DNA from: Betaproteobacteria bacterium
GTDB taxonomy: Bacteria; Pseudomonadota; Gammaproteobacteria; Burkholderiales; JAHFQX01
Assembly: GCA_023259135.1 (NCBI GenBank)
Contig: JAHFQX010000015.1
Span: 1-44,954, forward strand
Length of the DNA stretch: 44,954 bases
Reading direction: 5' to 3'
In this document: positions 27,265 to 44,954 of the stretch, piece by piece
Numbering within the stretch: position 1 is the first letter of the stretch
Layout of the letters: each line of letters opens with the position of its first letter
Position numbers and translations under genes: made by a program
The notes under the pieces: model-generated
The model's database searches: none
What the model was told of the DNA's origin: nothing
Seen by the model: only the letters and a program-made list of their open reading frames with translations

Positions 27265-27347
27265 AGGCGAGCCTTGCTGTCCCGATCCGGGGTGGGCGGG
27301 GAAGGGGTGGGAACATAACGCTGATCGATATGCAGAGGAGAGACAAG

Positions 27348-28391
27348 ATGACTCCGGTACCGAGAAACCGATTTTTCGCAGTGGGGATCGCGGCGTTGAC
27401 GGCGATGCTGGCTGCGACGCCGCTCCATGCCCAGGACAAAAAACTGGTGTTGCGGGTGGCGGACTCCTTTCCGCAAGGACATTACCTTTCTCGCTATGCC
27501 ACCAAATATTGGATGGAAACGGTCACCGCGGCCACCAAGGGCGGGGTGGAATTCGAGCATTATCCGGCGGAGCAATTGGGCAAGGCCAAGGATCTGCTGG
27601 CCCTGACGCTTTCCGGGGTCACGGACGTGGGCTACGTGGGGCCGTCTTATGTTTCCGACAAGATGCCGCTGTCGGCGGTGGCGCAGCTGCCCGGCAGTTT
27701 TGCCACATCCTGCGAGGGCACCTTGGCGTACTGGAAGTTGGCGAAGGACGGCATTCTCGCCCAGACAGAATTCGCTGCCAATGGGGTGAGGCTGTTGTTT
27801 ACCGTGGTGCTGGCCCCTTATCAGGTGGGCACGACCAAGCAAAAGATCGACGGGCTGAAGAGCCTGGAAGGCCTCAAGCTGCGCAGCACGGGGGGCGCGT
27901 TGGACGTGGTGGTGCGCAAGTTGAAGGCGGTTCCCGTGCAAATCGCCGCCCCGGACGTCTACGAAGCCATGTCCCGCGGCACCGTGGACGGTGGCGTGCT
28001 GCCCTATTCCAGCCTGTTTCCCTACGAGCTGCACAAGCTGCTGAAGTATTCCACCATCGGCGAGAATCTGGGGAGCTTTGTCGCCAACTACGTCATCAGC
28101 GAAGCCCGCTGGAAGCAATTGCCGGAGAATGTGCGCAAGGCAATGGAAGACGCGGGCGAGGCGGCCACCAAGCGAGCTTGCGCCTTGGTGGACAAGGATC
28201 AGGATGTCGATACCGAGAGGCTCCGGCAAGCGGGAGTGACTTTGGTGAAATTGCCCCCGGCCGAGCGGGCGGCGCTGGCCGGTCTGATGGCCTCCGTGAA
28301 TACCGAGTGGGCCGAGACCTTGGACAAGCGGGGCAAGCCGGGGACCGAGGTGCTTAAAGCCTTCAACGAGACCCTGAAGCGGACTCGCTAA
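27348..28391 (+). CDS. TRAP-type substrate-binding protein, copy 1 (DctP family)
   Basis: A 347-residue periplasmic protein. The signal peptide ends near residue 28 (PLHA before QDKKLVLRVADSF). The DctP fold is recognisable by HYPAEQLGKAKDLLALTLSG, by GLKLRS (Arg179, where the family's ligand-carboxylate-binding arginine sits) and by SRGTVDGG. Two cysteines, Cys122 (ATSCEG) and Cys278 (KRACALVDKD), and the C-terminal WAETLDKRGKPGTEVLKAF recur in all its full-length paralogues here. Ligand is unknown; TRAP proteins usually bind organic acids. The ATG at 27348 is chosen because GAGGAG precedes it. It converges on an acyl-CoA dehydrogenase gene. Confidence 0.88.
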   Translation: MTPVPRNRFFAVGIAALTAMLAATPLHAQDKKLVLRVADSFPQGHYLSRYATKYWMETVTAATKGGVEFEHYPAEQLGKAKDLLALTLSGVTDVGYVGPSYVSDKMPLSAVAQLPGSFATSCEGTLAYWKLAKDGILAQTEFAANGVRLLFTVVLAPYQVGTTKQKIDGLKSLEGLKLRSTGGALDVVVRKLKAVPVQIAAPDVYEAMSRGTVDGGVLPYSSLFPYELHKLLKYSTIGENLGSFVANYVISEARWKQLPENVRKAMEDAGEAATKRACALVDKDQDVDTERLRQAGVTLVKLPPAERAALAGLMASVNTEWAETLDKRGKPGTEVLKAFNETLKRTR

Positions 28392-28395
28392 AAAA

Positions 28396-28417
28396 TCCCG
28401 GGGGCTTCGCCCCGGGA
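28396..28417 (-). terminator. Terminator between dctP1 and acyl-CoA dehydrogenase 1
   Basis: A GC-rich hairpin (TCCCGGGG / CCCCGGGA around GCTTCG) lies between the converging genes. Read on the - strand it is followed by six T bases, so it is a canonical terminator for the dehydrogenase genes. On the + strand it has no T-run and would act more weakly for dctP1. Confidence 0.8.
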
Positions 28418-28428
28418 TGGGCCGAGAT

Positions 28429-29574
28429 CTATTTCAAGCGCATGGCCTGGGCGATCATGGTGCGCTGCACCTGGGAGGTTCCGCCGCCGACGGTGGCCTG
28501 CATGCCCTCGCGGAAATGGCGCTCCATGTCGGCATCGGGCAGCATGCCGTGGCCGCCCATGATCTGCATGCCGTTGCGGGAGACGGTTTGCAGGGTTTCC
28601 GAGGCGAACAGCTTGGCCATGGCGACTTCCTTGCCGCACGGCAAGCCCTTGGAGGCCATGTCGGCGGCGCGATAAGTGAGCAGCCGGGCGGCATCCACCT
28701 GGGTCTGCATGTCGGCCAGCATGTGGCGCAGCACCTGGAACTCGAAGATCGGCTGGCCGAACTGGACCCGCTGGTGGGCGTAGTTCAACGCGTCGGTCAC
28801 CGCCCCTTGGGCGCTGCCCATATACCCGGCGGCGGCACAAACTCTTTCTAGCAATAGATGCTCGCCGCCGATGATTTTCCAGCCGTCGCCGGGCTTGCCG
28901 AGCATTTGCGAAGCCGGGATGCGGACGTTGTCGAGGAAGATTTCGGTGGTGCTGACCGAGCGCCGGGCCAGGGTGGGCAGGGAGCGGATATCGAGGCCGG
29001 GGGTGGTGTTGGGGATGAGCAGCACCGACAGGCCCTTGCGCTTGTCCTCGGTTTTCTCGGTGCGGACCAGCATGACGATGACGGTGTTTTTCAGGCCGGC
29101 GCCGCTGCACCAGAGCTTCTGGCCGTTGACCACGTATTCATCGCCGACCCGCTCGGCGCGGGTCTGGGTGTTGGCGGCGTCGGAGCCGGCATTGGGCTCG
29201 GAAATGGACACCGAGAAGCGGATATCTCCTCTGAAGAACGGCTCCAGATATTGTTTCTGCTGCTCGGGAGTCCCGTGGTGAGCGATATTCATGGCGGTGA
29301 AGGTGGGTAAGGTAATGGCCACGCCGAAATCCACTCCGTATTTGCTCAGCATTTCCACCATGATGGCGTAGTCGAAGGCGCTCATGCCGTCGCCGCCGAC
29401 TTCCGTCGGGAACAGCAGTTTCATCCAGCCCATCTTGACGATCTTCTGATAGGCCTCATCGGGATGCTGCCGGTTGACGTCGCACTTGCGGATGTATTCG
29501 CGGCCGATTTCCTGGTCGACGAAGCGCTCCACCGAGTCGCGCCACATGATTTGTTCTTCGGTGAGAAAATTCAT
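28429..29574 (-). CDS. Acyl-CoA dehydrogenase, copy 1
   Basis: A 381-residue FAD-dependent acyl-CoA dehydrogenase: alpha N-terminal domain, middle beta domain with SISEPNAGSDAANTQTRAER, and C-terminal domain with the QRVQFGQPI segment. The usual C-terminal catalytic Glu is replaced (TVGGGTSQVQ, residues 361-370). A Glu at 243 in LLLERVCAAAG aligns with the helix-G base of isovaleryl-CoA dehydrogenase, so activity is expected, perhaps on branched or cyclic acyl-CoA. From codon 122 on it is identical at DNA level to copy 2 next door. A longer frame from 29592 is possible, but the ATG at 29574 matches copies 2 and 3. Confidence 0.92.
   Translation of the reverse strand: MNFLTEEQIMWRDSVERFVDQEIGREYIRKCDVNRQHPDEAYQKIVKMGWMKLLFPTEVGGDGMSAFDYAIMVEMLSKYGVDFGVAITLPTFTAMNIAHHGTPEQQKQYLEPFFRGDIRFSVSISEPNAGSDAANTQTRAERVGDEYVVNGQKLWCSGAGLKNTVIVMLVRTEKTEDKRKGLSVLLIPNTTPGLDIRSLPTLARRSVSTTEIFLDNVRIPASQMLGKPGDGWKIIGGEHLLLERVCAAAGYMGSAQGAVTDALNYAHQRVQFGQPIFEFQVLRHMLADMQTQVDAARLLTYRAADMASKGLPCGKEVAMAKLFASETLQTVSRNGMQIMGGHGMLPDADMERHFREGMQATVGGGTSQVQRTMIAQAMRLK
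28439..29211. repeat. 773-bp identical block, left copy
   Basis: This stretch is identical base for base, as far as reading by eye shows, to 29630-30402 (offset 1191). It covers codons 122 to nearly the end of acyl-CoA dehydrogenase 1. Flanking parts of the two genes differ clearly. No terminal inverted repeats or transposase are associated with it. Confidence 0.92.
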
Positions 29575-29619
29575 GGATTCCCCTTGCGGCAAATAAATGT
29601 TGAGAAGATGGGATGGCCG

Positions 29620-30765
29620 TTACTTGATCCGCATGGCCTGGGCGATCATGGTGCGCTGCACCTGGGAGGTTCCGCCGCCGACGGTGGCCTGCATGCCCTC
29701 GCGGAAATGGCGCTCCATGTCGGCATCGGGCAGCATGCCGTGGCCGCCCATGATCTGCATGCCGTTGCGGGAGACGGTTTGCAGGGTTTCCGAGGCGAAC
29801 AGCTTGGCCATGGCGACTTCCTTGCCGCACGGCAAGCCCTTGGAGGCCATGTCGGCGGCGCGATAAGTGAGCAGCCGGGCGGCATCCACCTGGGTCTGCA
29901 TGTCGGCCAGCATGTGGCGCAGCACCTGGAACTCGAAGATCGGCTGGCCGAACTGGACCCGCTGGTGGGCGTAGTTCAACGCGTCGGTCACCGCCCCTTG
30001 GGCGCTGCCCATATACCCGGCGGCGGCACAAACTCTTTCTAGCAATAGATGCTCGCCGCCGATGATTTTCCAGCCGTCGCCGGGCTTGCCGAGCATTTGC
30101 GAAGCCGGGATGCGGACGTTGTCGAGGAAGATTTCGGTGGTGCTGACCGAGCGCCGGGCCAGGGTGGGCAGGGAGCGGATATCGAGGCCGGGGGTGGTGT
30201 TGGGGATGAGCAGCACCGACAGGCCCTTGCGCTTGTCCTCGGTTTTCTCGGTGCGGACCAGCATGACGATGACGGTGTTTTTCAGGCCGGCGCCGCTGCA
30301 CCAGAGCTTCTGGCCGTTGACCACGTATTCATCGCCGACCCGCTCGGCGCGGGTCTGGGTGTTGGCGGCGTCGGAGCCGGCATTGGGCTCGGAAATGGAC
30401 ACGGCAAAACGGATTTTCCCCTCGAAGAAAGGATCGAGATATTGCTTTCTCTGTTCCGGGGTCCCGTGTCTGGCGATATTCATGGCGGTGAAGGTGGGCA
30501 GCATGATGGCGACGCCGAAATCCACCCCATACTTGCTCAGCATCTCGCACATGATGGCATAGTCGAACACGCTCACGCCGTCCCCCCCCACCTCCGGCGG
30601 GAACATGAGCTTGAGCCAGCCCATCTTGGCGATCTTCTGATAGGCCTCATCGGGATGCTGCCGGTTGACGTCGCACTTGCGGATATATTCGCGGCCGATT
30701 TCCTGGTCGACGAAGCGCTCCACCGAATCGCGCCACATGATTTGTTCTTCGCTTAAGAAATTCAT
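29620..30765 (-). CDS. Acyl-CoA dehydrogenase, copy 2
   Basis: A 381-residue paralogue of copy 1, 45 nt upstream of it in the same orientation and probably in one transcript. The first 121 residues differ from copy 1 at 15 positions (for example M51L, T57P, V73C, R115E, D117K); the rest is identical except the penultimate residue. It keeps the Glu243 base and the Gly-rich TVGGGTSQVQ. The N-terminal differences include positions that could line the acyl pocket or the dimer interface, so the two may differ in substrate or partner. A GGAGGAAC site precedes the ATG, and a good promoter lies about 165 bases upstream. Confidence 0.92.
   Translation of the reverse strand: MNFLSEEQIMWRDSVERFVDQEIGREYIRKCDVNRQHPDEAYQKIAKMGWLKLMFPPEVGGDGVSVFDYAIMCEMLSKYGVDFGVAIMLPTFTAMNIARHGTPEQRKQYLDPFFEGKIRFAVSISEPNAGSDAANTQTRAERVGDEYVVNGQKLWCSGAGLKNTVIVMLVRTEKTEDKRKGLSVLLIPNTTPGLDIRSLPTLARRSVSTTEIFLDNVRIPASQMLGKPGDGWKIIGGEHLLLERVCAAAGYMGSAQGAVTDALNYAHQRVQFGQPIFEFQVLRHMLADMQTQVDAARLLTYRAADMASKGLPCGKEVAMAKLFASETLQTVSRNGMQIMGGHGMLPDADMERHFREGMQATVGGGTSQVQRTMIAQAMRIK
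29630..30402. repeat. 773-bp identical block, right copy
   Basis: Partner of the block at 28439-29211, within acyl-CoA dehydrogenase 2. Identity ends abruptly at both sides, while the adjoining 5' parts of the two genes show many base changes. This is the mark of recent gene conversion or of a recombination between tandem copies. Confidence 0.92.
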
Positions 30766-31128
30766 GATTTAGTTCCTCCGGTTGTTGAATCAGGGGGTGA
30801 ATGGCAAAGCAATCCGAGCCTTGCCTTTGGGAAGGCTTCAGGGAAGGGCTACAGGGAGACGGGATCTCCACACGGCCACTCCCCAACCGCCACGGAAGCC
30901 AAGCCCCGTAGCGGCGCCGCAAATGTCCGGATGTTAAGCCCAGGAAAGGGGGGTTGTCAAAGAGAATGACAAGAGCAGGCGCGCCTTGCCCGCCGGTCAA
31001 GCACTTGCTTGCTTTACGGCGTGACTTGAGGCTGATTAGGATAGCGGTGACCGGGTAAGGGCGCCTATAATCCCGCACGGAGCAGTGGTCGATGAAACTC
31101 AAAATAACCCGACCCAGGAGGAGATTCC
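30766..31128. other. 363-bp divergent intergenic region
   Basis: No gene seen. It separates acyl-CoA dehydrogenase 2 (leftward) from dctP2 (rightward). Contents: a long leader for the dehydrogenase with a small hairpin GGAGA/TCTCC (30855-30869); the leftward promoter at 30931-30960; and, for dctP2, a TATAAT at 31066-31071 without a clear -35, giving a leader of about 50 nt. An AGGAGGAG ribosome-binding site for dctP2 lies at 31116-31123. Confidence 0.6.
30922..30960 (-). promoter_or_regulatory. Promoter of acyl-CoA dehydrogenases 2 and 1
   Basis: On the - strand consensus TTGACA (30960-30955), 18 bases, TAACAT (30936-30931). Directly after the -10 comes CCGGACATT, part of an imperfect palindrome (30922-30935) at the expected start point. 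The transcript would have a leader of roughly 160 nt. Confidence 0.65.
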
Positions 31129-32181
31129 ATGAAAAACTTGCGTTTTTACGCCATTGCGGCAGCTTTACTGGTTTTGTCCGCCGGCGGCGGGACCGTTTGG
31201 GCTCAGGTAGCCCAGAATCAAAATCGGCCACTAGAAAAGAAAATCCGCCTGCGGGTCGCGGACGCTTTTCCGGTGGGCCACTATATCGCCGAGTACGCCA
31301 CCCGCTATTGGATGGATCAGGTGACGCAGCTCACCGGCGGGGCCGTCGAGTTCGAATATTACCCGGCCGAGCAGTTGGGCAAGGCCAAGGACTTGCTGGC
31401 GCTGACTCTTTCCGGGGTGACGGACGTCGGTTACGTGGTTCCGTCCTACGTCTCCGATAAAATGCCGTTGTCGGCGGTGGCCGAACTGCCCGGCGGCTTC
31501 CCGACCTCTTGCGCCGGGGTGGCGGCCTACTGGAAGCTTTCCAAGGACGGTTTCCTGGCCCAGAAGGAATTCACTCCTAACGGGGTCCGGGTCTTGTTCT
31601 CCTTCGTATTGGCCCCCTATCAGATTGCCGTGAAGCCGAAATTTCAAGGGCTCAAGGATTTGGAGGGATTGAAGCTGCGCTCCATCGGTGGCGCTCAGGA
31701 CATCACGGTGCGGAAATTTAAGGCCGTGCCGGTGCGCATGGCGTCTCCGGAAGTTTTCGAATCCATGTCCCGGGGTACCATCGATGGCGCTATATTCCCG
31801 TATGCCAGCATGGTGACCTATGACTTGCCGGTGAAGTATGTCTCCGTGGGCGAAAACTTCGGCACCGCCGCCGGCCATTACATGATGAGCGAGAGCCGCT
31901 GGAAAACCCTGCCGGCCGGTGTGCAGAAAGCCATGCTGGAAGCGGGGGACGCCACCGCCAAGCATGCCTGCGCCTTGTTCGACAAGGACGTGGACGCGGC
32001 CCTCGATAAGCTCAAGCAACGGCAAGTTACCCCGGTGCAACTGAGTCTGGAAGAAAAGCGGCAACTGGCCGCGGCTCTGGTCACGGTAGGAGCGGAGTGG
32101 GCCGAAGGCCTCGACAAGCGGGGCAAGCCCGGAACGGAAACCTTAAAAGCTTTTCGGGAAGCTTTGCCGCCCGCCCGTTAA
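31129..32181 (+). CDS. TRAP-type substrate-binding protein, copy 2 (DctP family)
   Basis: A 350-residue periplasmic protein with a signal peptide ending near residue 25 (GTVWA before Q). It shares EYYPAEQLGKAKDLLALTLSG, the binding-site arginine (Arg184 in GLKLRS), Cys128 and Cys281, and the C-terminal WAEGLDKRGKPGTETLKAF with the other copies. It is closest by eye to copy 1 (SDKMPLSAV, VPSYV, SRGT). The AGGAGGAG site is excellent, suggesting high expression. dctP3 follows 62 bases later. Ligand unknown. Confidence 0.88.
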   Translation: MKNLRFYAIAAALLVLSAGGGTVWAQVAQNQNRPLEKKIRLRVADAFPVGHYIAEYATRYWMDQVTQLTGGAVEFEYYPAEQLGKAKDLLALTLSGVTDVGYVVPSYVSDKMPLSAVAELPGGFPTSCAGVAAYWKLSKDGFLAQKEFTPNGVRVLFSFVLAPYQIAVKPKFQGLKDLEGLKLRSIGGAQDITVRKFKAVPVRMASPEVFESMSRGTIDGAIFPYASMVTYDLPVKYVSVGENFGTAAGHYMMSESRWKTLPAGVQKAMLEAGDATAKHACALFDKDVDAALDKLKQRQVTPVQLSLEEKRQLAAALVTVGAEWAEGLDKRGKPGTETLKAFREALPPAR

Positions 32182-32199
32182 GCGCTGCCATTGGAGAAT

Positions 32200-32219
32200 C
32201 GGGGGTAATTCCGCCCCCG
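32200..32219 (+). other. Intergenic hairpin dctP2-dctP3
   Basis: CGGGGG and CCCCCG arms separated by TAATTCCG. There is no T-run after it, so it is more likely an RNA-stability or partial attenuation element than a full terminator. Confidence 0.45.
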
Positions 32220-32243
32220 TGTTTGAGTCATTGGAGGTAGACA

Positions 32244-33269
32244 ATGAAGCTGCTATGCAAAGGTTTTGCATTGTTGATGCTCTTGGGCGGCGCAAGCGTC
32301 GTCTTCGCCCAGGGGAAACTGACGCTGCGGGTTTCCGACCAATTTCCTCCCGCCCATTTTGTTTACGACAGCATCAAGTTCTGGATGGCCGAGGTGGAAA
32401 AGGCGGCCGGCGGGGCGGTGAAGTTCGACTATTTTCCCGGCGAGCAGTTGGGCAAGGCCAAGGATCAACTGGCGTTGATCCAGTCCGGCGTGGTGGATGT
32501 CAGCTTGGTGGTGCCCTCCTACACCTCGGACAAGATGCCCCTGTCCGCCGTCGCCGAGCTTCCGGGGATGGTCGATCCCAAAACATCCTGCGCGGGCAGC
32601 GTCGCCTATACCCAACTTGCCCAGACTGGGATTTTCGCCAAGCAGGAATACGATCCGGCCGGGGTGCGGATGATTTGGGGCTTTGCCTATCCCCCTTATC
32701 AACTCATGATGGCTCAGCGGCTGCTGACCTCGTTGAAGGACGTTGAGGGCGCCAAGATCCGCACGTTGGGGAACTCCATGGACATTCTGGTGCGTCATCT
32801 CAAGGGGGTGCCGGTGAGAATCCCCCTGCCGGATGTGTACGAGGCCTTGTCCCGGGGTACCATCGACGGGTTGATGTACACCCATGCGGGAATGTATGCC
32901 TACAAGATGGAGGGGCTGATCAAGTCCGCTACCACGAGCGGCAGCTTCGGTAGCGCGGTGGGGGGGTACAGCATCAGCGAAAAGCGCTGGAAGGAACTCC
33001 CCGCGCCGATCCAGAAGGCGATGATGGATGCCGGAGAGAGGGCTACTCGCCACTTGTGCGCCCGCATGGACAAGGATGCCCAGGAAGCCTTGGAGAAATT
33101 AAAGCAGCGTGGAGTAACGATGGCGTCTTTCTCTCCGGCGGACCAGAAAGAGTTGGAAAAAATCTACGCCATGACAGCCAACGAGTGGGTCGCCGGCATG
33201 GACAAGCGGGGCAAGCCGGGCGGCGAGGCTCTCAAGGCATTTCGCGAAGCGGTGGCCCAGGCTCGCTGA
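32244..33269 (+). CDS. TRAP-type substrate-binding protein, copy 3 (DctP family)
   Basis: A 341-residue periplasmic protein; signal peptide to about residue 22 (VVFA before Q). It has FPGEQLGKAKDQLALIQSG, the arginine in GAKIRTLG, Cys116 and Cys272, and the tail WVAGMDKRGKPGGEALKAF. It is the most divergent of the full-length copies: the ligand-side segment reads SRGTIDGLMYTHAGMYAY instead of the usual DGxxxPYSS pattern, which points to a different ligand. A GGAGG site precedes the ATG. It converges on acyl-CoA dehydrogenase 3. Confidence 0.87.
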   Translation: MKLLCKGFALLMLLGGASVVFAQGKLTLRVSDQFPPAHFVYDSIKFWMAEVEKAAGGAVKFDYFPGEQLGKAKDQLALIQSGVVDVSLVVPSYTSDKMPLSAVAELPGMVDPKTSCAGSVAYTQLAQTGIFAKQEYDPAGVRMIWGFAYPPYQLMMAQRLLTSLKDVEGAKIRTLGNSMDILVRHLKGVPVRIPLPDVYEALSRGTIDGLMYTHAGMYAYKMEGLIKSATTSGSFGSAVGGYSISEKRWKELPAPIQKAMMDAGERATRHLCARMDKDAQEALEKLKQRGVTMASFSPADQKELEKIYAMTANEWVAGMDKRGKPGGEALKAFREAVAQAR

Positions 33270-33327: not shown

Positions 33328-34473
33328 TCAGCGCAGCCGCATCTCCTGGGAAATCATGGTGCGCTGGATCTGGGAGGTGCCGCCGCCGACGGTGGCCTGC
33401 ATGCCTTCGCGGAAATAGCGTTCCATGTCGCCATCCGGCAGCATGCCGTGGCCGCCCATGATCTGCATGCCGTTGCGGGAAACGGTTTGCAGGGTCTCCG
33501 AGGCGAACAGCTTGGCCATGGCGACCTCCTTGCGGCAGGGCAGGCCCTGGCTGGCCATTTCGGCGGCACGATAGGTGAGCAGCCGAGCGGCATCCACTTG
33601 AGTTTGCATGTCGGCCAGCATGTGGCGCAGCACCTGAAACTCGAAGATCGGCTGACCGAACTGTACTCGTTGGTGGGCATAGCGCAGCGCATCGGTGACC
33701 GCGCCTTGGGCATTGCCGACATAGCCGGCGGCGATGGCGATGCGCTCCAGCTGCAGATGCTCGCCGCCGATGATTTTCCAGCCGTCGCCGGGCTTGCCCA
33801 GCATTTGGGCAGCGGGGATCCGCACGTTGTCCAGGAAGATCTCCGTGGTGGTAATGGAGCGGCGGGCCAGGGTGCTAAGGGGCCGGATGTCGAGGCCGGG
33901 AGTGGTGTTGGGAATGATGAATACCGACAATCCCTTGCGCTTGTCATCGGTTTTTTCGGTCCGCACCAGCATCAGGATGACCGCGTCTTTGTTGGCGGCG
34001 CCGCTGCACCAGAGCTTCTGGCCGTTGACCACGTATTCATCGCCGACCCGCTCGGCGCGGGTCTGGGTGTTGGCGGCGTCGGAGCCGGCATTGGGCTCGG
34101 AGATGGAAATGGGGATGCGGATCTCGCCCCGCATGAAGGGCTCCAGGTATTGCTTCTTTTGCTCGGGGGTGCCGTGCAATACCAGATTCATGGCGGTGAA
34201 AGTCGAGCCGGTGATGGCAGCGGAAAAATCGAAGCCGTACTTGGCCAAGCCCTCGCACATCAGCGCATAAGCGAAGATGTCGGCGCCGTCGCCACCATCG
34301 GCTTCCGGGATGATCAGCCGGTGCCAGCCCAATTGGGCGGCTTTTTCATAGGCCTCGAAGGGGAAGCGTCGTTCGACGTCGCACTTGCGAATGTATTCGC
34401 GGCCGATCTCCTGGTCGACCCAGCGCTCCACGGTATCTTTCCAAAGCTGTTGCTCCTCGGTGAGAAAATTCAT
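33328..34473 (-). CDS. Acyl-CoA dehydrogenase, copy 3
   Basis: A 381-residue paralogue of copies 1 and 2, same length and motifs: SISEPNAGSDAANTQTRAER, a Glu in LQLERIAIAAG at the helix-G position, and TVGGGTSQIQ in place of the usual C-terminal catalytic Glu. It is more diverged overall (WVDQ, IIPEADGGDGADIFAYALM), except for a 106-bp tract at 33996-34101 that is identical to copies 1 and 2. It is divergent from the CoA-transferase operon. The frame is open far upstream of the true ATG, but that extension overlaps the divergent gene and is not coding. Confidence 0.92.
   Translation of the reverse strand: MNFLTEEQQLWKDTVERWVDQEIGREYIRKCDVERRFPFEAYEKAAQLGWHRLIIPEADGGDGADIFAYALMCEGLAKYGFDFSAAITGSTFTAMNLVLHGTPEQKKQYLEPFMRGEIRIPISISEPNAGSDAANTQTRAERVGDEYVVNGQKLWCSGAANKDAVILMLVRTEKTDDKRKGLSVFIIPNTTPGLDIRPLSTLARRSITTTEIFLDNVRIPAAQMLGKPGDGWKIIGGEHLQLERIAIAAGYVGNAQGAVTDALRYAHQRVQFGQPIFEFQVLRHMLADMQTQVDAARLLTYRAAEMASQGLPCRKEVAMAKLFASETLQTVSRNGMQIMGGHGMLPDGDMERYFREGMQATVGGGTSQIQRTMISQEMRLR
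33996..34101. repeat. 106-bp tract shared by all three acyl-CoA dehydrogenase copies
   Basis: Identical to 29097-29202 (and so to the same part of copy 2), while sequence on either side differs. It encodes the SEPNAGSDAANTQ flavin/substrate region. A short conversion tract or very strong codon-level constraint would explain it. Confidence 0.75.
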
Positions 34474-36994: not shown

Positions 36995-37024
36995 TTAACC
37001 GTCAAGATGAAGGAGGAGGGGACT

Positions 37025-38068
37025 ATGAAGCGTTATTGGAAGCTGGTTGGGTGGTGCGGCGTATTGTTCTCGGTTTGGGGGAATGGGGCCCTGGCCCAAG
37101 GCAAGGAAAAGCTGGCCCTGCGGGTGGCGGATTCGTTTCCCACCAGCGGCCACTGGATGGTGGATAATGCCACCAAATTCTGGATGGAGGCGGTGACCCG
37201 GGCCACGGGAGGGGCGGTGAGCTTCGAGTACTACCCCTCGGAGCAGTTGGGCAAGACCAAGGATATGCTGTCCTTGACCCAGTCGGGGGTGGCGGACATT
37301 GCTTACGTTGCTCCTTCCTTCATTGCCGACAACAAGATGCCCTTGTCCAGCGTGGCGGAATTGCCTGGCAGCTTCACCACCTCGTGCCAGGGGACGCTGG
37401 CTTACTGGAAGCTGGCTACCAAGGACCGCATCCTGGCGGAAAAGGATTTCGCTGCCAACGGCGTCCGGTTGCTGTGGGGGGTGGTGATGCCTCCCTATCA
37501 GATTGTGACCAGCAAAAAGAAAATCGAATCGCTGAAGGACGTGGAAGGGCTGAAGCTCCGTACCGCCGGGGCGGCGCTCGATATGACAGCCCGCAAGCTG
37601 AAGGCGGTCCCGGTGCGGCTGGCCACCCCCGAAATCTACGATGCCCTGTCCCGCGGGACCATCGACGGCATGATTTTCCCGTTTTCCAGCCTGGTGCCGT
37701 ATAAGCTCGACGGGCTGGTGAAATACGCCACCGTCGACGAAAGCCTGGGAGCCATCGTCGCCAATTACGTCATCAGCGAAGCCCGCTGGAAGAAACTGCC
37801 GGAGAGCGTCCAGAAAGCCATGATGGACGCCGGCGAGGAGGCGACTCGACGGGTCTGCGCGGCCCTGGACCGGGATCTGCAAACCGATATCGCCAAGCTC
37901 AAGCAGCAGGGGCTGACCACTATCCAGCTTCCGGTGGCCGACAAGAAGGAACTGCAAGGGTTGCTGGCCAATGTCCAGACGGAGTGGGCCGAAGGGCTGG
38001 ATAAGCGCGGCAAGCCGGGGAGCGAGGTGCTGAAGGCTTTTCGCGGCGCCTTGCAGCAGGGTCGTTAG
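37025..38068 (+). CDS. TRAP-type substrate-binding protein, copy 4 (DctP family)
   Basis: A 347-residue periplasmic protein; signal peptide to about residue 24 (NGALA before Q). It has the arginine in GLKLRTAG, the cysteines in FTTSCQG and RRVCAALDRD, and the tail WAEGLDKRGKPGSEVLKAF. The ATG at 37025 is preceded by AAGGAGGAGGGG; an earlier ATG at 37007 overlaps that site and is unlikely. It lies 30 bases after CoA-transferase 2 and 29 bases before the MaoC-fold gene, so this binding protein is made together with the acid-activating enzymes. Confidence 0.9.
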   Translation: MKRYWKLVGWCGVLFSVWGNGALAQGKEKLALRVADSFPTSGHWMVDNATKFWMEAVTRATGGAVSFEYYPSEQLGKTKDMLSLTQSGVADIAYVAPSFIADNKMPLSSVAELPGSFTTSCQGTLAYWKLATKDRILAEKDFAANGVRLLWGVVMPPYQIVTSKKKIESLKDVEGLKLRTAGAALDMTARKLKAVPVRLATPEIYDALSRGTIDGMIFPFSSLVPYKLDGLVKYATVDESLGAIVANYVISEARWKKLPESVQKAMMDAGEEATRRVCAALDRDLQTDIAKLKQQGLTTIQLPVADKKELQGLLANVQTEWAEGLDKRGKPGSEVLKAFRGALQQGR

Positions 38069-38097
38069 AATTTCCAACAACGTAAAGGAGCAGCAGC

Positions 38098-38559
38098 ATG
38101 GCCAATCGCTATCTGGATGATTTCAATGTGGGTGACGAATTCAAGAGCTACGGACGCACCGTCACCGAGGCGGATATCGTCAACTTCACCTGCCTCGCGG
38201 GGCTCAAAGTGCCTATTTTCATCAACGACGACTTCGCCAGGAAGTACACCTCCTACGGCGGGCGCATCACCCCGGGATTGCTGACCGCCACCTTGGCGGC
38301 GGGGATGATGGAGGAGATTCTGGGTCCCTCCACTATTGCCGCCCTGGAGCTCAGCAATTTCAAGTTCACCGTGCCGGTCAAGCCGGGAGATACGTTGCGG
38401 GCGACGGTTACGGTGGAGGACAAGAAGAACCTTTCCGATGGCGAGCGGGGCGTCTTCTCCGGCCGGGTACGGGTGTTCAACCAGCGCAAGGAGCAGGTGT
38501 TGGAGTTCACCGAGAAGCTGATGATGCGTCGGTTTCCGCCCAAGGACATGGACTATTGA
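38098..38559 (+). CDS. MaoC-fold (hot-dog) protein lacking the usual catalytic dyad
   Basis: A 153-residue single hot-dog-domain protein. The segment TEADIVNFTCLAGLKVPIF, then INDDFARKY and GGRITPGLL, aligns with the MaoC/R-hydratase signature, but the catalytic Asp of GDxNPxH is Leu35, the His is Phe41, and the usual HG after the GGRI turn is PG. Classical (R)-enoyl-CoA hydratase chemistry is therefore doubtful. It may bind acyl-CoA, act with different residues, or be a subunit. It closes the caiB-caiB-dctP4 group and is preceded by AAAGGAG. Confidence 0.85.
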   Translation: MANRYLDDFNVGDEFKSYGRTVTEADIVNFTCLAGLKVPIFINDDFARKYTSYGGRITPGLLTATLAAGMMEEILGPSTIAALELSNFKFTVPVKPGDTLRATVTVEDKKNLSDGERGVFSGRVRVFNQRKEQVLEFTEKLMMRRFPPKDMDY

Positions 38560-38650
38560 GGAGCAACGCCAGCCATGCCTAGAACCTAGAAAGGAATCAC
38601 GGTTGTCGGCGTTTCCCAGACTCATCGCGAACGGCGGAGGAGGATCGATC

Positions 38651-39691
38651 ATGGGTCGATGCAAAGGGCAGAAAAGTTTTGTTTTAGGCGTAGGCATGCT
38701 GGCTACGGCCGTTCTGGCTTCCCAGCCGGTCATGGCCCAGGACAAGAAATTGGTGCTCAGAGTGGCCGATCAATTTCCCCTTACGCATTACGTGCCCCGC
38801 TATGCCATTAAGCCCTGGATGGAGCAAGTCACCAAGGCCACCAAGGGGATGGTTCAATTCGAGCATTATCCCGCGGAGCAACTGGGTAAGGCGAAGGATT
38901 TGCTGTCCCTCGTCCAATCCGGAGTGGCGGATATCGTGCTGATCGCTCCCTCTTATGTCTCAGAGAAAATGCCTCTGACCGCGGTAGTGGAATTGCCTGG
39001 AATGGTCACGGGTGCTTGCCGAGGAAACTCCGTCTACTGGAAGTTGGCCAGAGAGGGCGGTATTTTGGCCGAGAAAGAATATGCCCCCAATGGGGTACGG
39101 GTGCTTTTTTCAGCGGTTTTCCCTCCTTATCAAATCATTTCCGCCAAGCGCAAGCTTGACAGCCCCAAGGACATAGAGGGCATGAAGCTGCGCATCCTGG
39201 GGGGAGCCATGGACATGACCGTGCGCAAGCTGAAAGCGATTGGCGTAAAGATGGCGACTCCCGATACCTTGGAAGCGATCAGTCGAGGCACGCTGGACGG
39301 GGGCATCTTTTCTTACGGAGTCACGGTGAACTATAAGATTCCGGCCAAATATGTCACGGCCGGGGAGGCTTTTGGCACAGCCGGGGCCATTTTCATCATC
39401 AGCGAGAACCGCTGGAAGCAGTTTCCCGACTCCGTGAAAAAAACCATGACCGAGGCGGGAGAAATAGCCGGCCAAAATTTATGCGCAGGCGTTGACAAGG
39501 AGGAGGCCGAAGATTTAGAGAAACTGAAGCAAAATGGGGTGACGGTGGTGCGCTGGTCGGCCGCGGACAAGAAGGAAATAGACGCGGTGCTGGCGTCGGT
39601 GGCCAACGAATGGGCCGCGGAAATGGACAAGCGCGGCAAGCCGGGGAGCGAGGTGCTGAAGGCCGCGCTGGAAGCCCGGGACAGCCGTTGA
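38651..39691 (+). CDS. TRAP-type substrate-binding protein, copy 5 (DctP family)
   Basis: A 346-residue periplasmic protein; signal peptide ends at about PVMA before QDKKLVLRVADQF. GMKLRILG carries the binding-site arginine; the cysteines are in VTGACRG and QNLCAGVDKE; the tail is WAAEMDKRGKPGSEVLKAA. It is very similar to copy 6, its downstream neighbour, sharing long runs such as KPWMEQVTKAT and GAMD-TVRKLK, so it arose by tandem duplication. The ATG at 38651 is chosen for its GGAGGAGG site. The gene is separated from the MaoC-fold gene by 91 bases. Confidence 0.89.
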   Translation: MGRCKGQKSFVLGVGMLATAVLASQPVMAQDKKLVLRVADQFPLTHYVPRYAIKPWMEQVTKATKGMVQFEHYPAEQLGKAKDLLSLVQSGVADIVLIAPSYVSEKMPLTAVVELPGMVTGACRGNSVYWKLAREGGILAEKEYAPNGVRVLFSAVFPPYQIISAKRKLDSPKDIEGMKLRILGGAMDMTVRKLKAIGVKMATPDTLEAISRGTLDGGIFSYGVTVNYKIPAKYVTAGEAFGTAGAIFIISENRWKQFPDSVKKTMTEAGEIAGQNLCAGVDKEEAEDLEKLKQNGVTVVRWSAADKKEIDAVLASVANEWAAEMDKRGKPGSEVLKAALEARDSR

Positions 39692-39745
39692 GGCGGTGAT
39701 CCGGAAACAGATCATTTTTGGAAGTGCTTTTTTGGAGAAATCAAA

Positions 39746-40780
39746 ATGTATAAACACAATGCATTGAAAACTTTTGCCGTGGGAATCTTGGCCGTCTCCG
39801 CCCTGGCTTCCCAGCCGGTTGTCGCCCAGGACAAGAAACTGGTGCTCAGAGTGGCCGATCAATTTCCCCAAGGCCATTTTTTGCCGCGGTACGCCATCAA
39901 GCCCTGGATGGAGCAGGTGACCAAAGCCACCAACGGCGAGGTTCAGTTCGAATACTACCCCGGCGAGCAGTTGGGCAAAGCCAAGGATCTGTTGTCGTTG
40001 GTGCAATCGGGAGTCGCGGACGTGGTGTTGTTCGCTCCCTCCTATGCCTCGGACAAGATGCCGCTGACCGCGGTGATGGAGTTGCCCGGGATGTTTACCA
40101 GCTCCTGCCAGGCGACCCTTACCCACTCGAAGCTCGCAAAAGAGGGCAGTATCCTGGCCCAGCGAGAATACGCTCCCAACGGGGTGCGGGTTTTGTTCTC
40201 GGCCATCTACCCTCCCTATCAGTTGGTCTCCGCCAAACGCAAGATCGATGGCCCCAAGGACATTGAAGGCATGAAGCTGCGCGTCCTGGGCGGGGCCATG
40301 GATCTCACCGTGCGCAAGCTGAAGGGCGTTGGGGTGAAAATGGCCTCGCCCGAGGCCTTTGAGGCCATTTCCCGGGGCACCTTGGACGGGGCTATCTTCT
40401 CCTATGGAGTCACGGTGAATTACAACATTCCCACCAAGTATGCGACTGCGGGAGGGGGGTTCGGCTCGGCGGCGGCGATCTTCATCATCAGCGAGAACCG
40501 CTGGAAGCAGCTTCCCGACCCTGTGAAAAAAGCCATGACCGAGGCGGGAGAAGCCGCTAGCCGCAACGCGTGCGCCGGCATGGATAAAGAGGAAGCCGGC
40601 GACCTCGAGAAACTCAAGCAAAAAGGCGTGACCGTGGTCCGTTGGTCGGAGGCCGACAAGAAGGAAATGGATGTGATCCTGGCATCCGTGGCCAGCGAAT
40701 GGGCCGCGGAGGTAGACAAACGGGGCAAGCCCGGCAGCGAGGTGCTGAAAGCCACTCTGGAAGCGCGAGACGGCCGTTGA
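39746..40780 (+). CDS. TRAP-type substrate-binding protein, copy 6 (DctP family)
   Basis: A 344-residue periplasmic protein with signal peptide ending at about PVVA before QDKKLVLRVADQF. The arginine is in GMKLRVLG, the cysteines in FTSSCQA and RNACAGMDKE, and the tail is WAAEVDKRGKPGSEVLKAT. Near-duplicate of copy 5, with differences grouped around residues 115-135 (MFTSSCQATLTHSKL versus MVTGACRGNSVYWKL), a segment that may face the ligand cleft. A TTGGAG site precedes the ATG. Confidence 0.89.
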   Translation: MYKHNALKTFAVGILAVSALASQPVVAQDKKLVLRVADQFPQGHFLPRYAIKPWMEQVTKATNGEVQFEYYPGEQLGKAKDLLSLVQSGVADVVLFAPSYASDKMPLTAVMELPGMFTSSCQATLTHSKLAKEGSILAQREYAPNGVRVLFSAIYPPYQLVSAKRKIDGPKDIEGMKLRVLGGAMDLTVRKLKGVGVKMASPEAFEAISRGTLDGAIFSYGVTVNYNIPTKYATAGGGFGSAAAIFIISENRWKQLPDPVKKAMTEAGEAASRNACAGMDKEEAGDLEKLKQKGVTVVRWSEADKKEMDVILASVASEWAAEVDKRGKPGSEVLKATLEARDGR

Positions 40781-40814
40781 TCCTGTGATGGTCGTGTAAA
40801 CATCGGATCGGTCT

Positions 40815-40841
40815 GCCGGGGGAAGAAGGCGTTCCCCCGGC
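40815..40841 (+). terminator. Hairpin between dctP6 and dctP7
   Basis: A perfect 10-bp stem (GCCGGGGGAA / TTCCCCCGGC) with a seven-base loop. Only a short TTT follows after several bases, so it is a partial terminator or an mRNA-stability element at the end of copy 6. Confidence 0.55.
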
Positions 40842-40888
40842 GGAAGTTTCACAGGTTCCTAACAGCCACGTAATACGCGAGGGTCGAT

Positions 40889-41908
40889 ATGAGTATGCAG
40901 GGAGTCTTGAAAATTTTCATGGCCGGAATAGCCGCCGCCTTGACGGCCCAGCCTGCGCTGGCCCAGGAGAAGCTGGTTTTGCGAGCGGCGGATCCGTTTC
41001 CTCCTGGACACTATCTTCATCGCCATGGGCTCAAGCCATGGATGGAGGCGGTGACCCTGGCGACGCAGGGCCGGGTTCAATTCGAGCACTACCCCGCGGA
41101 GCAGTTGGGGAAGGCCAAAGATCTGCTTTCCCTGGCTCAGGCCGGCGTCGCCGACGTCGTCCTCACGGGGGCGGCCTACCATTCCGAGAAGATGCCGCTG
41201 ACCGCTGCGCTGGAAACCCCGGGATTGTTCACCGACTCCTGTCAGGGAGCCCGAACTTACCAGAAACTGGCCGAAGGCGTTCTCGGCGAGAAGGAATACG
41301 CCGTCAATGGTGTCCGTGTGCTGGTTCCGGCCATTTTGCCTACTTACCATGTGGTTTCCGCCATCCGGAAAATTCAATCTCTGAAAGATGTGGAGGGGAT
41401 GAAGCTGAGGACGCTGGCCGGGGCCCAAGAGCTCACCATGCGCAAATTCAAGGCCGTGCCGGTGCGAATGCCCTCGTCCGAACTTTTCGAGGCGATGTCC
41501 AGAGGCACGGTGGACGGCGCCATCTTTAGTTATGAGGGCGTGGTGAACAACAAGCTTCCCATCAAATACGTTACATCGGAAGTGGGATTCGGTTCGGGAG
41601 CAGCCATGATCTTCATCGCCGAGAACCGCTGGAACAAGCTGCCGGAGGAAGTCAAAAAAGCCATGCTGGAGGCCGGCAAAGCGGCTACTCAGACTTTATG
41701 CTCCGGCATGATGCGGGAGGAGACCGCCAGCCTGGAAAAGCTGAAGCAGGCGGGAGTCACGGTGGTCCGTTGGTCTGCCGAGGATAAAAAGGAAATGGAA
41801 AGGGTCATGGCAGCGGTCGCCGACGAATGGGCATCGCAAATGGACAAGCGGGGCAAGCCTGGCAGCCAAGTGTTGAAAGCCGTGCTGGAAGCGCGAGACA
41901 GCCGTTGA
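40889..41908 (+). CDS. TRAP-type substrate-binding protein, copy 7 (DctP family)
   Basis: A 339-residue periplasmic protein with a short signal peptide (to about PALA before QEKLVLRAADPF). It has the arginine in GMKLRTLAG, cysteines in FTDSCQG and QTLCSGMMRE, and the tail WASQMDKRGKPGSQVLKAV. It groups with copies 5 and 6 by the shared C-terminal GVTVVRWS pattern, but is more diverged. The ribosome-binding site (GCGAGGG) is weaker than those of its neighbours. The next gene, a flavoprotein, starts 95 bases later. Confidence 0.88.
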   Translation: MSMQGVLKIFMAGIAAALTAQPALAQEKLVLRAADPFPPGHYLHRHGLKPWMEAVTLATQGRVQFEHYPAEQLGKAKDLLSLAQAGVADVVLTGAAYHSEKMPLTAALETPGLFTDSCQGARTYQKLAEGVLGEKEYAVNGVRVLVPAILPTYHVVSAIRKIQSLKDVEGMKLRTLAGAQELTMRKFKAVPVRMPSSELFEAMSRGTVDGAIFSYEGVVNNKLPIKYVTSEVGFGSGAAMIFIAENRWNKLPEEVKKAMLEAGKAATQTLCSGMMREETASLEKLKQAGVTVVRWSAEDKKEMERVMAAVADEWASQMDKRGKPGSQVLKAVLEARDSR

Positions 41909-44366: not shown

Positions 44367-44954
44367 ATGATCAGACTGACCAAGAGAATCGCTGGGGCAA
44401 TGGCTGTTTTGACGCTGATGCTTGTTTTCTCGGGCGGCCATGCCCAGGACAAGAAAATCGTCCTGCGCGTCGCGGATCACCTGCCCCCCAACCATTTCCT
44501 GATGGAGCCGATGGTGAAGTATTGGATGAATGCGGTGACCAAGGGCGCCGGAGGAACGGTGGAATTCGAATACTATCCGGCGGAGCAGTTGGGAAAAGCG
44601 AAGGATATGCTGTCCTTGGCATTGTCCGGGGTCACCGATATCGCGGGGGTGGTGCCGGCCTATATCTCCGACAAGCTGCCCTTGTCGGTGGTGGCGGAGC
44701 TGCCGGGCAGCTTTGAAACCTCTTGCGCGGGAACATTTTCTTTCTGGCGCCTGGCCAAGGAAGGCGGGGCGATCGCGGCGAAGGAATACGCCCCCTTGGG
44801 ATTCCGGCCTCTGTTCGCCATTGTGCTGCCCCCCTATCAGATTTTTTCGCGCCACAAGTTGGAGTCGGTCAAAAGCCTTGAAGGGCTGAAGCTCCAGACC
44901 GCGGGAGGAGCCAAGGAGATCATGGTCCGCAAGATGAAGGCGGTGCCCATCAAG
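44367..44954 (+). CDS. TRAP-type substrate-binding protein, copy 8 (partial, DctP family)
   Basis: The first 196 codons of an eighth paralogue, running off the right edge. Signal peptide to about GGHA before QDKKIVLRVADHL; EYYPAEQLGKAKDMLSLALSG and the first conserved cysteine (ETSCAG) are present. The binding-site arginine of GLKxR is replaced by glutamine (GLKLQTAGGA), unlike in the other seven. The second Arg in VRKMKAVP is kept. A GAGGAGG site precedes the ATG at 44367; an ATG at 44362 stops at once. It lies 47 bases after acyl-CoA dehydrogenase 4. Confidence 0.88.
   Translation, partial: MIRLTKRIAGAMAVLTLMLVFSGGHAQDKKIVLRVADHLPPNHFLMEPMVKYWMNAVTKGAGGTVEFEYYPAEQLGKAKDMLSLALSGVTDIAGVVPAYISDKLPLSVVAELPGSFETSCAGTFSFWRLAKEGGAIAAKEYAPLGFRPLFAIVLPPYQIFSRHKLESVKSLEGLKLQTAGGAKEIMVRKMKAVPIK

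Follow-up and report, generated by a model that had tools for sequence, protein, structure and literature searches.

Evidence for gene conversion between old tandem acyl-CoA dehydrogenase duplicates that spares an N-terminal island in a betaproteobacterium

Gene conversion that is limited to one part of a protein has been described in several systems. In mammals, the tandem paralogues TLR1 and TLR6 resemble the genes analysed here, as their N-terminal ligand-binding part follows orthology and their C-terminal part has been converted separately in each species, with almost the same interval affected (PMC2077338). However, TLR1 and TLR6 are animal receptors, whereas the present case concerns bacterial flavoenzymes of several subfamilies and an apparent exchange among three genes. 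Conversion in domain 3 of the release factors RF1 and RF2 is likewise restricted to the domain with the shared function and spares the recognition part (PMC4530459), but it is ancient and rare and affects essential single genes, in contrast to the recent and recurrent events in clustered metabolic paralogues described here. In methanogens, the same-operon paralogues mtrA-1 and mtrA-2 have a common domain that is homogenised by lineage and another domain that differs (PMC4632066); there the difference is an added transmembrane domain, whereas here it is a substrate-pocket segment. Domain-limited conversion is already known; what is new is that it recurs across several groups of paralogues within a single enzyme family and that the tracts have an edge in common. 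A limited literature search found no report of domain-limited conversion in acyl-CoA dehydrogenases (ACADs).

The genes were analysed within a 44,954-nucleotide stretch of betaproteobacterial DNA (the window). Gene A (28429..29574, minus strand) and gene B (29620..30765, minus strand) are open reading frames of 381 codons each, with 96% amino-acid identity between their products. B lies 45 bp upstream of A, and the two genes likely form one transcription unit with B first and A second, since a terminator-like hairpin of the intrinsic type (28395..28418, minus strand; a consensus match only) is located directly 3′ of A and a sigma-70-like promoter match (30931..30960, minus strand; 10/12 bases, 0.6 expected by chance, consensus only) is located upstream of B. 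A, B and a third paralogue, gene C, score above cut-off for all of the Pfam N-terminal, middle and C-terminal ACAD domains (PF02771, PF02770 and PF00441). Like the LCAD/IVD-type ACADs (PMC11153573), A and B combine the three ACAD domains with a putative catalytic glutamate, Glu243 in the motif LLLER, which aligns by eye with LCAD Glu291 and the IVD position; at the position of MCAD Glu376 both have glycine (GGGTSQ) and no glutamate. The glutamate position suggests that A and B are ACADs of the LCAD/IVD type, but they differ from the families of that type in scoring far below every NCBIfam equivalog cut-off.

An earlier note on this DNA had reported that the blocks 28439..29211 (A) and 29630..30402 (B) are identical over 773 bp, and that the first 121 codons of the two genes encode 15 amino-acid differences. 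The match is exact and breaks off at those very bases at both ends (minus strand; gene positions 364–1136, codons 122–379), and the count of 15 was confirmed. The step from diverged to identical sequence described in the same note is real at its 3′ edge. However, the diverged part does not extend to the start of the gene but forms a two-sided island, codons 46–121 (gene positions 137–363; 29212..29438 in A and 30403..30629 in B, minus strand), as gene positions 15–136 (29439..29560 in A and 30630..30751 in B, minus strand) are again near-identical, with 2 differences in 122 bp; only one edge of the island had thus been caught. The island carries 52 differences in 227 bp (23%), out of 63 nucleotide differences in total, together with 14 of the 15 N-terminal residue differences. 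The remaining residue difference of the 16 found overall is at codon 380, and the first codons, the last 10 bp and the flanks of the two genes are also diverged.

Synonymous differences along the length of the genes, which the earlier note had proposed to plot, followed the same layout. Silent differences were found at 4/24 sites in codons 1–45, at 32 of ~48 sites in the island (dS 1.56; Fisher p=1e-4 against codons 1–45) and at 0/189 sites in codons 122–378 (dS 0; Fisher p=5e-28 against the island). In a permutation test using third-position sites, the A–B run of 188 consecutive silent polymorphic sites was matched by 0/2000 permutations, which excludes chance. The dN/dS of the island was 0.08, indicating purifying and not diversifying selection, with no sign of positive selection. 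Silent divergence between C and its orthologue L079, from the groundwater betaproteobacterium JACRAS, was ~0.3 in most segments (range 0.11–0.55). On this scale, the duplication that gave A and B appears to predate the C/L079 species split by a wide margin, and the homogenisation would be far younger.

Gene C (33331..34473, minus strand; 81% amino-acid identity to B) is located 3 kb away from A and B and is the candidate conversion partner of both. A 106-bp tract in C (33996..34101, minus strand; gene positions 373–478) is identical in A and B, and its 5′ edge is 9 nt from the A/B edge. The permutation test gave A–C and B–C runs of 26 silent polymorphic sites (p<=5e-4, at gene positions 375–480) and no significant run for inter-genome pairs. 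Moreover, the segment tree of the island placed A and B as sisters (88/88) inside the L009/L010 clade (100/99), and that of codons 122–160 placed them beside C and L079, with weak support (52/90). The tract and the segment trees together suggest that A, B and C exchange sequence among all three.

A second tandem ACAD pair of the same genome, p and q on contig C44, differs at only 1/444 nt in codons 226–375 and by 20% 5′ of codon 226. The orthologous pair in G202 (Rhodocyclaceae MAG Bin_77) is 28% different in codons 1–123 and 1.8% beyond, while the p–p and q–q comparisons between the two genomes showed a flat difference of 20–22%, with no change-point at the junction. For the N domain of p/q, the AU test rejected a paralogue clade (p=2e-4), and the two q genes grouped together in the N-domain tree with support of 90/96; for the middle and C-terminal part, orthologue clades were rejected (p about 1e-36). 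These results indicated that the p/q duplication predates the split of the two lineages, that each N domain retained its p or q character and that the remainder was homogenised per lineage. The back part of p/q is homogenised independently in two lineages, and the N domain still follows orthology.

Of the hallmarks of concerted evolution, closer similarity between paralogues than between orthologues was found in p/q and, on the within-genome side only, in A/B; in the spared N domain of p/q the orthologues were the closer pair, and homogenised silent sites were found in codons 122–378 of A/B. Searches of the genus, family and class turned up nothing closely related to the A/B pair, DNA matches at the order level were weak, and no orthologous A/B pair was found among the genomes searched. 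Further tracts were detected in ACADs on C28/C9 and C44/C69. In addition, the p gene of another genome, G200, is cut by a contig end within its C-terminal part, a position that is suggestive of a repeat. In the L138/L142 group, the copies of the present genome cluster in the C domain and two G200 copies do not, and this group appears to be weaker evidence of inter-genome concerted evolution than p/q. No tract longer than 18 bp was found in 80 contig stretches of other relatives, 54 of them with at least two ACADs, indicating that the phenomenon is not universal. Control comparisons in the window gave no comparable tract among the TRAP substrate-binding protein genes, where SBP5/SBP6 reached only p=0.013, or among the CoA-transferase genes, where CaiB amounted to two sequences with no shared polymorphic reference.

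The position of the tracts within the genes was also evaluated, with tract edges placed by unsupervised change-points. Five tracts, spanning four ACAD subfamilies and two genomes, have their 5′ edges at gene positions 364, 373, 364, 356 and 370, that is, within 18 nt. These edges fall where the N-terminal domain ends (Pfam N 5–116, M 121–217), at the junction between the N domain and the beta-barrel. Such a cluster arose in 3.5e-5 of draws under simulated uniform placement, and 0/8 tracts overlap gene positions 151–355 (product of placement chances about 1e-4); both tests assume independent tracts, several of which share genes or a genome, and the tracts had been picked by the change-point method ahead of the clustering test.

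The residues that differ in the island were mapped using human LCAD as the reference for pocket and ETF-patch sites (PMC11153573), through a fragment of the human protein that was checked against the PDB. The A/B differences at residue 73 (LCAD Trp121) and residue 88 (LCAD Ile136 in the ungapped multiple alignment, 135 in the gapped pairwise one) are predicted to lie at the acyl pocket or next to it, and that at residue 64 (LCAD Gly112) in the ETF patch. In A/B alone, pocket sites hold only 2/14 island substitutions. The residues that are diagnostic of the p and q types in both genomes fall within the first 121 positions in 11/13 cases, and among those alignable to the LCAD fragment, 5/9 are at pocket sites, compared with 7/71 of the others (p=0.003). 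A and B differ at two of these enriched pocket sites, LCAD 121 and 136. The pocket-site enrichment in p/q may be taken as the best, albeit indirect, indication that one scaffold carries two specificities. The earlier note had read the N-terminal domain as being kept different, hinting at selection of this kind. Its reading gains from the persistence of the p/q types across genera and from the enrichment, and loses from the island dN/dS of 0.08 and from a competing neutral account discussed below; judged from the sequences, selection for two acyl pockets is plausible.

Concerning the recombination itself, the earlier note had left open whether gene conversion or unequal crossing-over was responsible. 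Unequal crossing-over was considered and rejected, as it would leave a single junction, a change in copy number and shared flanks, whereas the tracts are two-sided and the flanks are unrelated. Tracts bounded inside the gene, unrelated and intact flanks and a constant copy number argue against both unequal crossing-over and a fresh duplication. On the other side, near-saturated silent divergence of the island beside zero divergence, the tract in the third copy and the independent recurrence in further ACAD pairs and in a second genome point to conversion, and gene conversion between old duplicates is well supported.

Given the tracts observed, where they begin and end, the contrast in age and the independent repetition in two genomes for p/q, the best explanation, to which we assign a probability of about 0.82, would be that A and B are old duplicates whose back part was converted and whose island was spared. 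A and B would have arisen as tandem duplicates of one ACAD gene. An earlier exchange may have produced the short tract in common with C, and a recent non-reciprocal recombination would have copied codons 122–379, comprising the middle and C-terminal domains, one way between A and B. Codons 46–121, which are predicted to encode the helix D–E portion of the acyl pocket together with some of the ETF-docking patch, would have been left unconverted although both sides were homogenised. The same process probably acts on other ACAD paralogue groups, both here and in one or more related genomes, its tracts often starting at the junction between the N domain and the beta-barrel. We infer that selection eliminates conversions that enter the N-terminal domain, with the copies serving different acyl-CoA substrates and having the FAD/CoA-binding, catalytic and tetramer part in common.

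The strongest competitor, which we consider a tentative but real contender at somewhat below even odds, is neutral conversion anchored by homology, with no selection for different pockets. On this account recombination requires near-identical DNA, the conserved (S/T)EPxAGSD block after codon 121 is where it enters, and pairing fails in the N domain for excess of divergence. In unconverted paralogues, codons 121–130 show 15.8% nucleotide difference compared with 31% just upstream, codons 231–240 form another local conservation peak, and the tract starts at codons 119–125 and 226 lie at or near these peaks; the exact edge may therefore mark where homology suffices for pairing. However, unconverted pairs show little excess divergence in the N domain (27%, compared with 24% and 22% elsewhere), and A and B are homogenised on both sides of the island. 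Furthermore, the N-terminal types of p/q persist across genera and show the pocket-site enrichment. We consider it improbable that a recent duplication was followed by replacement of codons 46–121 of one copy from an unsampled homologue. The identical part would fit a very recent duplication, and the silent divergence of the island is as large as that to genes of other genomes, but a fresh tandem should share its start, ribosome-binding site, stop or flanks, whereas those ends differ between A and B. Moreover, the island copies are sisters in one clade, and p/q has the opposite history, with old N domains and a converted back part. An assembly artefact, in which copies were collapsed and small differences lost or a false tandem was created, is very hard to sustain: the draft metagenome assembly consists of 86 contigs, and C9, C28 and C31 break off within ACAD repeats or immediately next to them, but the B 5′ end, repeat and B 3′ end followed by the A 5′ end, repeat and A 3′ end leave a single graph path, so that a false tandem seems unlikely, and the same pattern is seen in the A–C tract and, in two different assemblies, in p/q.

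Conversion between old ACAD duplicates, as favoured here, provides a case among metabolic enzymes, repeated in two genomes and in several groups of paralogues, of a protein with one part homogenised and the substrate-facing part spared. ACADs are among the largest families of enzymes that degrade aliphatic and aromatic acids, and the case points to residues expected to separate substrates within this family. It also shows why whole-gene ACAD trees can mislead calls of orthology and function. With 16 residue differences, 14 of them in the island, the natural A/B pair resembles a ready-made domain swap. A broader possibility, which we place at somewhat below even odds, is that the large ACAD family is modular in this betaproteobacterial lineage, with a uniform FAD/CoA-catalytic body maintained by recurrent conversion across subfamilies and N-terminal pocket segments protected by selection, such that a single body would serve many substrate specificities.

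Several other features of the window and the genomes were noted. Eight DctP-type TRAP substrate-binding protein genes are located in one 18-kb stretch (27330–28391, 31129–33269, 37007–41908 and 44400–44954), interspersed with ACAD, CaiB CoA-transferase and nitronate-monooxygenase-like genes, and no DctQ/DctM-like gene was recognised among the open reading frames read in the window. Two adjoining substrate-binding protein genes (38603–39691 and 39746–40780) are 76% identical and have a weak shared silent-site run (p=0.013). With about 48 ACAD genes in 2.58 Mb, the genome seems to have an unusually high density of them for its size. In the same genome, contigs C9 (at its start), C28 and C31 (both at their ends) stop within or next to C-terminal parts that are near-identical and belong to one ACAD subfamily, suggesting a longer ACAD array broken up by the assembler. 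L126 (G202:C52:10648-11766) and G202:C51:8-1036 are ACADs with one in-frame stop each (TAG and TGA, respectively), reflecting either pseudogenes or sequence errors. Finally, L010 (NZ_DAIEIF010000029.1), titled as the alphaproteobacterium Acidocella, encodes an ACAD that is 81% identical in amino acids to B, indicating either a transfer or a mislabelled bin.
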